33,750 nucleotides of DNA. Source: Bacteroidia bacterium (GTDB lineage: Bacteria > Bacteroidota > Bacteroidia > UBA4408). The stretch lies in contig JADLFI010000040.1 of the NCBI GenBank assembly GCA_020845635.1, positions 1 to 33,750 of the forward strand, given 5' to 3'. The notes beneath the pieces are model-generated. The model worked only from the letters and a program-made list of their open reading frames with translations. It was not told the DNA's origin and did not search any database. Each line of letters begins with the position of its first letter. The first letter of the stretch is position 1. Positions 15,734 through 26,720 of this stretch are shown one piece after another. Both the position numbers and the translations under genes were made by a program.

Positions 15734-17254
15734 ATGGCGACTTCAATTCAATCCGAAAGCAAAACTCCCAACCCAAATGTAATACTGTTTCTTACCACCT
15801 TGGCGTTTACTATATGCTTTGCTGCATGGATGTTTAACGGGGTAATGGTAACTTTTTTAGTTGATAAGGGAGTGTTTAACTGGGGGGCTGTACAAATTGG
15901 GTGGCTGCTTGGAATTCCTGTACTTGTTGGTTCTGTAATGCGTTTGCCAATGGGTATATTAACCGATAAGTTAGGCGGCCGATTTGTATTTACAGGCTTA
16001 TTGTTATTTTGTGCAATTCCAATGTTCTTCTTAAGCAAAGCAAATGATTTTGCATCATTTGCTTTGCTGAGTTTTGGATATGGTATGGCCGGTTCAGGTT
16101 TTTCTGTTGGAGTAGCTTATACTTCTGTTTGGTATTCAAGAGAGTGGCAGGGAAGGGCTTTAGGTATTTTTGGCGTTGGCAATGCAGGGTCGGCCATAAC
16201 CACCTTGCTTGCTCCAACTATCTTAAATAAAATAACTAATAATGGCGCTGATATTGAACAATGGCGCATATTGCCTCAAATATATGCGGCTGTGTTAGTT
16301 ATTATGGCTGTGATATTCTTCCTATTTACGGTAAATAAAAAACCTCAAATAGGTCAAAAAACAGTAAATCAAATGCTCAAACCACTAGGCAATGTTCGCG
16401 TGTGGCGTTTTGGTTTATATTATTTCTTAGTATTTGGCTGCTTTGTAGCCTTCTCGCAATGGTTGGTTCCTTACTTTGTAAATGTATATGGTGCCTCTTT
16501 GGTTGTTGCCGGCTTGTTTGCTGCTTTATTCAGTATGCCTTCCGGATTAATACGTGCTGTTGGAGGTTGGATGAGTGATAGGTGGGGCGCACGTAAAGTA
16601 ATGATTTCTGTTTTTATATGGTCCATCTTTTTTAGTGCCCTATTAATTTTCCCTAAGATGGATATTTTAACTCCCGGAAAAGGCGTTATTGCCATTAAAG
16701 ACGGACAAGTTACTTCTGTAACAGAGTCGGTAATTACAGTTGACCAGATTGAATATCCCGTTAAGGTAAAACAACAAGATTATGAATTAAGTCAAGAATC
16801 TTCATCTGTTTTTCCTCATAAAAACACCTGGCAAACACCTGTAGTAAAAGAAGGAGAAATGATTAAAAAGAAACAACTACTGGCCCAAGGAACATCACAT
16901 ATACATTTTAGTGCTAATATGTGGGTATATGCGGTATTGGTTTTGTTGATTGGCATTGTATGGGGCATTGGTAAAGCCAGTGTTTACAAATTTATTCCTG
17001 ATTATTTTCCAAATGATATAGGTGCTGTTGGTGGTATGGTTGGCGTAATTGGTGGACTAGGTGGATTTATATGCCCAATCATTTTTGGGTATTTGTTAGA
17101 GTGGACGGGCTTATGGACAAGTTGTTGGTTTTTGATGCTACTTATTTCTATTGTTTGCTTTATGTGGATGAAACGTGTAGTACGCGGAATTATGAGAAAA
17201 CATGCGCCTCATGTGGCTGATGATATCGAACACAAAAATGAACCTATAAAATAA
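15734..17254 (+). CDS. narK: NarK1-type nitrate transporter with an extra loop domain
   Basis: A 506-residue MFS permease with about 12 membrane helices. Hallmarks are the first-half substrate Arg (GSVMRLPMGILTDKLGGRF), the motif SGFSVGVAYTSVWYSREWQGRALGIFGVGNAGSA, and the second Arg (SGLIRAVGGWMSDRWGARK). Members of the NarK1 group are taken as nitrate/proton symporters. An insertion of about 85 polar residues (about 309-393) lies between membrane helices of the C-terminal half and reads like a small beta-rich domain (TPGKGVIAIKDGQVTSVTES; VKEGEMIKKKQLLAQG). It is paired with narK2 11 bp downstream, as NarK1-NarK2 often are. Confidence 0.9.
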   Translation: MATSIQSESKTPNPNVILFLTTLAFTICFAAWMFNGVMVTFLVDKGVFNWGAVQIGWLLGIPVLVGSVMRLPMGILTDKLGGRFVFTGLLLFCAIPMFFLSKANDFASFALLSFGYGMAGSGFSVGVAYTSVWYSREWQGRALGIFGVGNAGSAITTLLAPTILNKITNNGADIEQWRILPQIYAAVLVIMAVIFFLFTVNKKPQIGQKTVNQMLKPLGNVRVWRFGLYYFLVFGCFVAFSQWLVPYFVNVYGASLVVAGLFAALFSMPSGLIRAVGGWMSDRWGARKVMISVFIWSIFFSALLIFPKMDILTPGKGVIAIKDGQVTSVTESVITVDQIEYPVKVKQQDYELSQESSSVFPHKNTWQTPVVKEGEMIKKKQLLAQGTSHIHFSANMWVYAVLVLLIGIVWGIGKASVYKFIPDYFPNDIGAVGGMVGVIGGLGGFICPIIFGYLLEWTGLWTSCWFLMLLISIVCFMWMKRVVRGIMRKHAPHVADDIEHKNEPIK

Positions 17255-18847: not shown

Positions 18848-19405
18848 ATGGAAAAATATCTTTCTGAAAAACTAAAATTGCTAGGGTTACTTTTTGCTTT
18901 CTTTCATGTAAGCCTTGTGTTTAATTCTGCTTATGCACAAATGAGTCCCGAAGTTCTTGAAGGGAAAAATTTATTTGAAGGTCGTGTGCGTTTTGAAAAT
19001 CGAGGTCCCTCATGTATTAGCTGCCACTCGGTAAATAGTAAAGATGTTGCTATGGGAGGTTTGTTAGCTAAAAATTTAACGGATGTTTATACAAGAATGG
19101 GTGAGGGGCTTTCGGCATGGTTGGCCGCACCTCCTTTTCCTGCAATGGCTTCATCATATCAAAACAATCCTTTAACCGACTCGGAGAGAGTTAAATTACA
19201 AACTTTTTTGAAGTATGTAAATGATGCTGACCAAAAAACAAAGGTAGCTGAAGATAAAGGTTATGGAGTTATGCTTACTGCCGGACTTACCGGTGTAGCA
19301 ATCATAATTATTTTTATTGGCATTATATGGCGAGTACGTAAAACTAAAATGGTTAAACAAGAAATTTTTGACAGGCAAATCAAAGCAGTTGATGCAAAAT
19401 TTTAA
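18848..19405 (+). CDS. membrane-anchored monohaem cytochrome c of the nar operon
   Basis: A 185-residue protein with an N-terminal signal sequence (to about AYA-Q at 30), one class I haem-c domain with CISCH at residues 56-60 and a likely axial Met100 (PFPAMASSY), then a C-terminal membrane helix (about 144-161) and a short basic tail inside the cell. It is the first gene of the narGHJI operon, directly behind an FNR-like box. Its position recalls the NarC cytochrome of the Thermus nar operon, though that protein is larger and dihaem. It probably passes electrons on the periplasmic face to or from the cytochrome c domain fused to NarI. Confidence 0.85.
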   Translation: MEKYLSEKLKLLGLLFAFFHVSLVFNSAYAQMSPEVLEGKNLFEGRVRFENRGPSCISCHSVNSKDVAMGGLLAKNLTDVYTRMGEGLSAWLAAPPFPAMASSYQNNPLTDSERVKLQTFLKYVNDADQKTKVAEDKGYGVMLTAGLTGVAIIIIFIGIIWRVRKTKMVKQEIFDRQIKAVDAKF

Positions 19406-25313: not shown

Positions 25314-26720
25314 ATGAAATATACTATTAATAAAATGAAAGCAACAGTAAATCCAATTCCCCAAAAAAGCAACAAACTTATATTCATGTTGCTAATGACC
25401 ATTGTTTTGATAGTGCCCTACAAATCAATGGCCAAAACAGGTCAGGAAATTTATAAAGAATTGTGTGCTGCCTGTCATACCTTAACCGATAAGAGATTAG
25501 TAGGTCCCGGGTTTGCCGGAGTTACTGAAAGAAGATCAGAAGACTGGCTTATTTCTTGGATTAAAGACTCACAGGCAATGGTTAAAGCCGGTGATAAAGA
25601 TGCGGTTGCTATTTTTGAGGAATATAACAAAACTCCCATGCCTGGCTACGCATCACAATTATCTGATGATGAAATTAAAGATTTATTGAAGTTTTTGGCT
25701 GAAGATCATACGGTAGTAGCTGCTACTACAGCAACAAGCGGAGCTTCACCCACTACAGTCGAACCAAAAAAATCAGAGCCTTTGTCAATTTATACCATTG
25801 GGGCAATTATTGTTTTAATTTTATTAGGTTTTTGGCTCTATAAACTTCGCGAAAGCACCAATAAACAAATGCGCGACTTAGGCTTTCATTCCGAACCGCA
25901 CGAAATTCCTAATTATTCTCTTCACCTGTTAATTTATATATCAATTGCCTCTATTTTAATATATTTCTTAATCGAGGCTCTTACCCTAAAATCAGGAATG
26001 ATAGATACAATTATGTTTATAGCTTTTCCTTATTTCTCATTAGGCATTTTCCTTATTGGAAGTATTTACAGATATCTCAACAGAGGTTTTCAAGTATCAT
26101 CACTCTCGTCACAATTCTTAGAAGGACGCAAACTATTCTGGGGTAGCCTACCATTTCACTGGGGCTTATTTGTTCTCTTTTTTGGGCACCTAATAGCTTT
26201 CTTATTCCCTTCTTCGGTTATGGCCTGGAACGGACATCCGGTACGTTTGTTAATTCTTGAGCTATCCTCATTTGCTTTTGGGTTAGGCGCTTTGTTGGGT
26301 TTAATACTATTAATTAAGCGTAGATTGGCGAGCCGAAAATTATTAGTTGTAGCCAATAAAATGGATATGGTTGTATATACCGTATTATTAACACAAATAG
26401 TATCCGGATTAGGGGTTGCATTCTTTGTTCGTTGGGGGTCTTCATGGTTTGCCAGCGTACTTACGCCATACTTACGTTCTATTTTCTCTTTTAATCCTGA
26501 TATTAGTGCAGTGGTAGAAATGCCTATTTGGGTTCAAATACATATTATTTCTGCCTTCTCTATTGTTGCTATTATTCCGTTTACACGCTTTGTACACTTC
26601 CTGGTTGCCCCGTTTGATTATGCTTGGCGCAAATACCAAATTGTAATTTGGAACTGGAATCCAAAATATATCAGAATGTCCAGAAAATGGAATTACGGTA
26701 AGAAAGCAAAAAATCACTAA
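25314..26720 (+). CDS. narI: NarI gamma subunit with N-terminal cytochrome c domain
   Basis: A 468-residue fusion; NarI alone is about 225. Residues 22-40 are a signal-like helix and residues 43-130 a class I cytochrome c domain with CAACH (51-55) and axial Met109 (TPMPGYASQLSDDEI). Residues 132-158 are a linker and 159-176 a membrane helix; NarI proper is about 200-440. The two haem b pairs are present with the E. coli spacing: His282 and His292 (10 apart; FHWGLFVLFFGHL), and His410 and His428 (18 apart; IHIISAFS...RFVHFL). So the quinol-oxidising diheme b core is intact and has an extra periplasmic haem c. An alternative start is the Met at codon 8. Confidence 0.93.
   Translation: MKYTINKMKATVNPIPQKSNKLIFMLLMTIVLIVPYKSMAKTGQEIYKELCAACHTLTDKRLVGPGFAGVTERRSEDWLISWIKDSQAMVKAGDKDAVAIFEEYNKTPMPGYASQLSDDEIKDLLKFLAEDHTVVAATTATSGASPTTVEPKKSEPLSIYTIGAIIVLILLGFWLYKLRESTNKQMRDLGFHSEPHEIPNYSLHLLIYISIASILIYFLIEALTLKSGMIDTIMFIAFPYFSLGIFLIGSIYRYLNRGFQVSSLSSQFLEGRKLFWGSLPFHWGLFVLFFGHLIAFLFPSSVMAWNGHPVRLLILELSSFAFGLGALLGLILLIKRRLASRKLLVVANKMDMVVYTVLLTQIVSGLGVAFFVRWGSSWFASVLTPYLRSIFSFNPDISAVVEMPIWVQIHIISAFSIVAIIPFTRFVHFLVAPFDYAWRKYQIVIWNWNPKYIRMSRKWNYGKKAKNH

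Follow-up and report, generated by a model that had tools for sequence, protein, structure and literature searches.

The NarK1-like nitrate transporter encoded in the window (the whole 33,750-nucleotide stretch analyzed here) carries, between TM9 and TM10, an insert that is predicted to fold as a barrel-sandwich hybrid and that we identify with high confidence as a homologue of domain beta-bD1 of the bacterial RNA polymerase beta subunit. The first-pass annotation had proposed an extra NarK1 domain between membrane helices at 16658-16915 (residues 309-394). Both the domain and its position proved correct: AF2 predicts the fold with confidence, complete copies are present in 57 of the 80 relatives fetched, and we place the insert at residues 309-392.

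Table 1. Features of narK1 and its insert, in positions of the window
Feature	Position	Strand	Basis
narK1-like MFS nitrate transporter gene, 506 aa	15734..17254	+	MFS_1, TIGR00886, NarK/NarU structures, Arg70/Arg274
TM9, residues 286-304, with motif A GGWMSDRWGARK before it (loop 8-9)	16589..16645	+	AF2 model
Pro307, end of TM9	16652..16654	+	Proline in 79/79
Inserted barrel-sandwich domain (predicted), residues 309-392	16658..16909	+	Alignment, AF2, fold searches
First neck strand, residues 309-319, consensus MxIxSPGxGVM	16658..16690	+	AF2 and alignment
RpoB beta-bD1 profile match, residues 317-388	16682..16897	+	E 6.6e-7 in own genome
Distal loop, residues 343-361, of variable length and sequence, pLDDT partly low	16760..16816	+	AF2 and alignment
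GD-box-like stretch PVVKEGEMIKKKQLLAQG, Lys at second Gly of published motif	16838..16891	+	Motif as in PMC11515920, section 2.5
Second neck strand, residues 382-392, consensus LLAxGVTxIFF	16877..16909	+	AF2 and alignment
TM10, residues 396-424	16919..17005	+	AF2 model

The transporter and its insert

The transporter matches MFS_1 in Pfam (E 2e-39) and, in two stretches, the NCBIfam model of NarK nitrate/nitrite transporters, TIGR00886 (E 2.8e-52, 178.1 bits). As this score misses the curated cut-off of 311.7 bits, we name the protein NarK1-like. The insert breaks up the match to the model, which may be one reason for the low score; the insert-less NarK2 of the window also falls below the cut-off, at 282.3 bits. 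The closest solved relatives by sequence are E. coli NarK and NarU (three sequences, E <= 0.01). With the full AF2 model, VIA placed the NarK-type structures 4iu9, 4u4w, 4iu8, 4jre, 4jr9, and 4u4v at Z 35.8-37.8, and all matches listed were MFS-type transporters, as expected with the MFS part being the larger. In keeping with the NarK family, the model has 12 membrane helices, and Arg70 and Arg274 are invariant in 79/79 aligned sequences. Both align with arginines of NarK, in which we take the substrate arginines to be Arg89 and Arg305. The position of the gene beside narK2 and narGHI, together with its relatives, suggests net nitrate import by a NarK1-type nitrate:H+ symporter (PMC5217062).

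The AF2 model of whole NarK1, built on a 64-row alignment, has a mean pLDDT of 86.9 and a pTM of 0.80, and reveals six beta strands between TM9 and TM10 (residues 309-319, 324-329, 333-336, 339-342, 362-369, and 382-392). By ten-residue block, pLDDT across 311-400 is 78-94, except for 53 at 351-360, and the insert modeled by itself reaches a mean pLDDT of 83.0 and a pTM of 0.65. Helix limits were taken from this model, replacing those of a Kyte–Doolittle scan, whose segments overlapped. The segment is thus predicted to be folded; a disordered stretch or a common unstructured loop, which the first-pass annotation had named as the outcome that would speak against a domain, is ruled out by the AF2 prediction and conservation. 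The fold is missing from the insert-less NarK1 proteins and NarK structures compared, bearing out the view that it is foreign to ordinary nitrate transporters.

In MFS topology, motif A (GGWMSDRWGARK) belongs to the cytoplasmic loop 8-9 ahead of TM9. The TM9-TM10 loop should therefore lie outside, placing the insert on the periplasmic or extracytoplasmic side. The insert starts right after the invariant-proline column of Pro307. In Paracoccus denitrificans NarK1, Pro302, reported to be essential, lies at the end of TM9 that faces the periplasm (PMC5217062). Pro307 is probably its equivalent, and in the Paracoccaceae row L061 one possible start numbers the TM9-end proline 302. Insert-less relatives such as L063 and L061 have a short hairpin-like stretch at the insert site, so the domain seems to have been added at the tip of an older TM9-TM10 hairpin, which the two neck strands extend.

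Kinship with the RNA polymerase beta subunit

When the window insert was compared with NCBIfam, the matches up to E 10 were RpoB models only (E 5.8e-6 and 1.3e-3). Among 43 members of the insert family, 25 and 11 matched two NCBIfam RpoB models (E <= 0.01) and one matched an RpoB/RpoC fusion model; under E 1e-3, RNA polymerase alone was found, the other matches being weak (PrdC in 3/43, best E 0.0011; ExtJ in 1/43). A profile of these 43 inserts (that of the window plus 42 of the 57 complete ones) was searched against the PDB at E <= 10, and all 38 distinct sequences matched were RNA polymerase beta chains (best E 4.2e-4), with E. coli-type chains matched at 712-787. A phmmer search of the PDB with the window insert alone returned nothing, whereas the profile did match. 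The limits of the insert are consistent with those of beta-bD1, which covers E. coli residues 715-790, is classified as CATH 2.40.50.100, and is absent from the archaeal subunit according to Table 1 of PMC11515920. This absence fits the profile search, in which no archaeal or eukaryotic polymerase appeared among the PDB matches at E <= 10.

Profile comparison by hhalign between the inserts and 21 RpoB sequences gave a probability of 97.6% (E 2.9e-12). In its own genome, the insert profile recovered NarK1 and then, weakly (E 0.035), one rpoB frame, which itself scores far above the curated NCBIfam rpoB cut-off. In the reciprocal search of the same genome, a 20-row RpoB beta-bD1 profile recovered RpoB (E 9.4e-34) and the NarK1 insert (E 6.6e-7), and the next best match had only E 1.09. 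This profile scored 54/54 insert-bearing NarK1 rows at 11.1-41.7 bits. Among the controls, 783 of 860 shuffled inserts scored, with a maximum of 10.5 bits, reversed inserts (n = 43) reached at most 4.6 bits, and 2 of 10 insert-less rows scored, both negatively; the lowest-scoring insert exceeds the highest-scoring shuffle by a narrow margin (11.1 vs 10.5 bits). Insert and RpoB stay in register throughout the domain, Q-x-P-[IV]-V and G-x-x-V-x-K included.

The fold searches lead to the same place. With the insert model, RNA polymerase entry chains made up 50/50 of the best 50 of 293 Foldseek matches (E <= 10), at E 0.011 to 0.20 and TM-scores of 0.48-0.57, and likewise 50/50 of the VIA matches listed, at Z 8.3 to 7.2 with 61-66 residues aligned and an rmsd of 1.9-3.6 Å; on E. 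coli chains, VIA puts the insert at 708-796. These Z values are near the level that VIA calls common, and the Foldseek E values start at 0.011, so the weight of the fold evidence is that sequence and structure converge on one place in RpoB. The structure prediction and fold search suggested by the first-pass annotation thus gave a folded segment with RNA polymerase chains as its matches, supporting the barrel-sandwich, hammerhead-type fold that it had named, as a predicted rather than a solved structure. The barrel-sandwich fold, named SBHM, is known in the form of beta' inserts (PMC2939025).

The description of the insert as lipoyl/biotinyl-like stands at the level of fold and fails as specific kinship, its nearest relative being RpoB beta-bD1. 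Pfam matches of the 43 members were weak and mixed: RnfC_N in 17 (best E 0.0012), Peptidase_M23 in 7, Biotin_lipoyl and Biotin_lipoyl_2 in 4 each, and others too. For the window insert, the top family was Peptidase_M23 (E 0.011, under the cut-off). In carrier domains, the modifiable lysine sits at the tip of a hairpin, which we place in the distal loop here. Across the 43 rows, no lysine in this loop (343-361) is conserved at 70% or more (K346 in 27/43); K363 is present in 22/43, and the conserved K379/K380 lie within the GD-box stretch. A lipoyl/biotinyl carrier is ruled out by this lack of a conserved distal-loop lysine. The scatter of weak matches over RnfC_N, Peptidase_M23, Biotin_lipoyl, and the NCBIfam PrdC model could also be read as a sign that the likeness to RpoB is convergence among barrel-sandwich hybrids, with the fold itself correctly assigned. 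We consider this very improbable, as the PDB profile search and NCBIfam under E 1e-3 give RNA polymerase only, and the match holds in both search directions with one register over the whole domain. Moreover, in four phylum samples (296, 199, 299, and 198 genomes), the places found by the insert profile at E <= 1e-5 lay in NarK-size frames (37) or in RpoB-size frames and fragments (68), divided among the samples as 27+7, 8+27, 0+10, and 2+24. All 93 loci compared directly were NarK1 (57, some places twice) or RpoB (36), the remaining places being classed as NarK or RpoB by frame length.

Part of this kinship has been reported before. HABAS is the name of a domain group whose insertions include, in section 2.5 of a 2024 report, a "major facilitator superfamily transporter protein" (PMC11515920). 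That insertion is prior art for the present architecture and lowers its novelty, although "NarK" has no occurrence in the main text of the report. The profile-homology thresholds used there are a BLAST p < 1e-9 and an HHalign probability > 70%; the insert exceeds the latter in the hhalign comparison above and is recovered in the reciprocal search. A complete two-glycine GD-box-like motif, defined by our own regular expression, was found in only 3/43 inserts vs 15/21 RpoB sequences. The core with the first glycine is present in 39/43 inserts and 18/21 RpoB sequences, and the second glycine is a lysine in 34/43 inserts, that of the window included. As its GD box is incomplete, we class the insert as a beta-bD1 homologue rather than a full HABAS member. 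The HABAS insertion of the polymerase beta subunit is also mentioned in PMC12369578, in whose accessible text the word "transporter" does not occur, and a description of an insert in NarK was not found among the papers listed by searches of the open-licence PMC literature.

Distribution, conservation, and possible role

The fetched relatives are the best 80 of 202 and form a biased set, as the search patterns came from the query and one of them from the insert. Besides the 57 complete inserts, 2 are cut or broken inside (L056 and L058, dropped from the complete count), 19 relatives lack the insert, and 2 were left unaligned (L062 and L069, whose reading frames are broken and shorter than 300 aa); our own copy, L001, was also kept out of this alignment. 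A separate alignment comprises 53 insert-bearing and 10 insert-less loci. The carriers are labeled Bacteroidota, Desulfuromonadales, other Deltaproteobacteria, Planctomycetota, Calditrichaeota, Hydrogenedentota, Acidobacteria, and Bdellovibrionales, and many are metagenome bins. Two bins labeled Euryarchaeota (L041 and L045) have an insert-bearing NarK1 adjoining nar genes.

In the sample of the window's phylum, with at most a few candidates scored per genome, the insert is present in 27/27 NarK1 places (E <= 1e-60) in 25 of 296 genomes. In the sample around the planctomycete locus L036, it is present in 8 places and absent from 16 frames of 402-444 aa, an N-terminal fragment (G433:C41) being uninformative. 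It occurs in 0/40 NarK1 places of the sample around L063 (Pseudomonas; Pseudomonadota), and in 2 places of that around L006 (Malonomonas), where insert-less NarK1 were uncounted. A tree was built with the insert columns removed and a NarK2 root, using the quick SH-aLRT method with no bootstrap, and leaving out 18 loci that were our own copy, truncated, broken, or near-duplicates (L001, L011, L012, L015, L021, L035, L046, L047, L053, L056, L058, L062, L067, L068, L069, L078, L079, and L080). One branch (SH-aLRT 99) sets all 50 insert rows apart from the others, one state change suffices, and no insert-less row lies inside this group, which spans several phyla. As the insert-less rows branch outside, a single gain appears to be the simplest reading; the finer branching and partly the root are unsure because of adjoining long branches.

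A neutral or merely stabilizing decoration, inserted once at the loop tip, harmless, and inherited with no specific job, would also leave a single change on the tree. The lower mean pairwise identity of the insert (50%, against 65% in the membrane core) and the lineage-specific additions of the neighboring NarK2 proteins agree with such an account. It is nevertheless unlikely in our estimation, since the insert is better conserved than the TM6-TM7 loop (41%), is kept at every NarK1 place of the window's phylum sample, and persists across deep divergence with no loss on the tree; losses are possibly under-sampled, as the fetched set is biased to close relatives and the phylum sample was scored on at most a few candidates per genome at E <= 1e-60. 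The NarK2 additions are not the same domain: ten NarK2 neighbors of ~530-550 aa (L002, L003, L006, L007, L018, L033, L036, L038, L041, and L049) have instead, between TM6 and TM7, two extra hydrophobic stretches, which would bring the number of membrane helices to 14. A separate polar insert lies between TM5 and TM6 of the NarK2 of L023.

Within the domain, constraint peaks in the neck. In the 43 rows, positions conserved at 90% or more number 12/23 in the neck (309-320 and 386-396), 11/47 in the barrel (321-342 and 361-385), and 0/18 in the distal loop (343-360). In the barrel, W366-Q367-E368 is near-invariant, with T at 368 in the window. The window protein departs from the consensus at four positions that are at least 88% conserved, namely 319 (I instead of M), 368 (T instead of E), 388 (S instead of T), and 393 (S instead of Q). 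The peak in the neck and its lack in the distal loop favor a domain that is fixed on the transporter rather than working by its far end, to judge by the alignment. The two triple-helix repeats of the MFS C-terminal bundle have been proposed to move like scissors (PMC4597091), and neck-weighted constraint together with a site at the joint of these repeats favors a periplasmic cap. In our tentative proposal, the insert would cap the TM9-TM10 hairpin and steady or tune the outer gate. The long neck strands would prolong the hairpin and keep the barrel close to the outer mouth of the C-terminal bundle, where a rigid extracytoplasmic cap, acting at the joint of the two three-helix repeats, could stabilize or tune the outer-gate opening of the nitrate:H+ symporter. 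Such a domain would carry no cofactor and be unrelated to transcription in function. Also in favor of this cap is its site right behind Pro307, as the probable counterpart of this residue in Paracoccus NarK1 is essential (PMC5217062). Speaking against it, removal of the TM9-TM10 loop domain of PepT2 left the transport Km unchanged, and a binding role was proposed for that domain (PMC4597091). Moreover, the neck conservation could come from folding alone, and W366-Q367-E368 could be a partner site. Taken as one statement, the domain identity, the periplasmic side, and the cap role fall slightly short of an even chance in our judgment. A doubtful extension is that a nitrate:H+ symporter acquired a copy of this polymerase domain in a single event, and that the domain ended up outside the membrane, came to regulate the gate at the scissor joint, and spread across phyla with nitrate-reduction clusters.

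The regulatory or docking role suggested by the first-pass annotation is conjecture at this stage. As a docking module, of the kind proposed for the PepT1/PepT2 domain, the periplasmic barrel would bind another protein, such as NarK2, a cytochrome, or a periplasmic nitrite reductase, and cluster this partner at the transporter. The insertion loop is the same as that of the PepT1/PepT2 domain, which binds trypsin (PMC4597091), and a near-invariant W366-Q367-E368 would suit a binding surface. Possible partners in the gene cluster of the window are a small cytochrome c-like protein and NarI. The order of genes after narK1 is narK2, the gene for this small cytochrome, narG, narH, a narJ-like gene (named from its place and relatives, with no NCBIfam match at 1e-5), and narI. 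The cytochrome c-like gene (18848-19405, between narK2 and narG) encodes one haem site and a membrane segment, with no NCBIfam match at 1e-5. NarI (25314-26720) matches TIGR00351 at residues 229-444, and its N-terminal extension combines a signal-like segment and a membrane segment with a single CxxCH site for c-type haem, indicating a cytochrome c-NarI fusion, with weak cytochrome matches (E about 6e-6).

We rate docking as rather unlikely, because a constant neighbor is lacking and the distal loop is unconserved. In loci extending up to ~5 kb on each side, some of which end at contig ends, 43/59 insert loci have a homologue of NarG, NarH, or NarI (minimum 30% identity and 100 bits), 42/59 have one of NarK2, and only 2/59 (L031 and L050) have one of the small cytochrome, which rules this cytochrome out as the partner. 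These two homologues have two haem motifs and lie ahead of narG. The 21 insert-less loci have NarG/NarH/NarI in 21, NarK2 in 20, and the small cytochrome in 0, so nar neighbors do not separate insert-bearing from insert-less loci. NarGHI is ruled out as the specific partner by L002-L005, in which no NarG, NarH, or NarI is in view and the insert-bearing narK1 instead lies near a ~740-aa molybdenum oxidoreductase ~22% identical to NarG. For the L002 reductase, the NCBIfam model that matches best is that of assimilatory NasC, at E 4e-254 and 845 bits against a cut-off of 1100. In L030, L032, L036, L040, and L042, the nar genes are followed by a five-haem cytochrome gene and then by a ~1000-aa protein with weak NarH similarity, an arrangement presumably akin to the beginning of alternative complex III.

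Comparison with known systems

Overall, the insert is a real, predicted well-folded, and widely kept domain, the product of an ordinary event of protein evolution and an interesting test case. For a domain known chiefly from RNA polymerase, these results supply a transporter family, a site, and a likely membrane side. The apparent single gain and the short hairpin of insert-less relatives offer a clean comparison, in which a role of the domain outside can be tested by swaps.

Compared with beta-bD1, the insert shares the predicted fold, extent, strand order, and sequence signature. However, it sits in what should be an extracytoplasmic transporter loop, its second GD-box-like glycine is mostly lysine, and it has its own near-invariant neck and W-Q-E. 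The HABAS insertions of PMC11515920 include the same domain group within an MFS transporter, possibly even of the same family; the text of that report leaves transporter name, site, and topology unstated, unlike for the insert here. E. coli NarK and NarU and P. denitrificans NarK1 have the MFS core, the substrate arginines, and the TM9-end proline in common with the window NarK1, whereas they lack the insert, and the aligned Pseudomonadota relatives have a short TM9-TM10 hairpin. The extracellular domain of PepT1/PepT2 is likewise a folded beta domain inserted into the TM9-TM10 loop of an MFS protein, but it consists of two immunoglobulin-like domains in an animal peptide transporter (PMC4597091).
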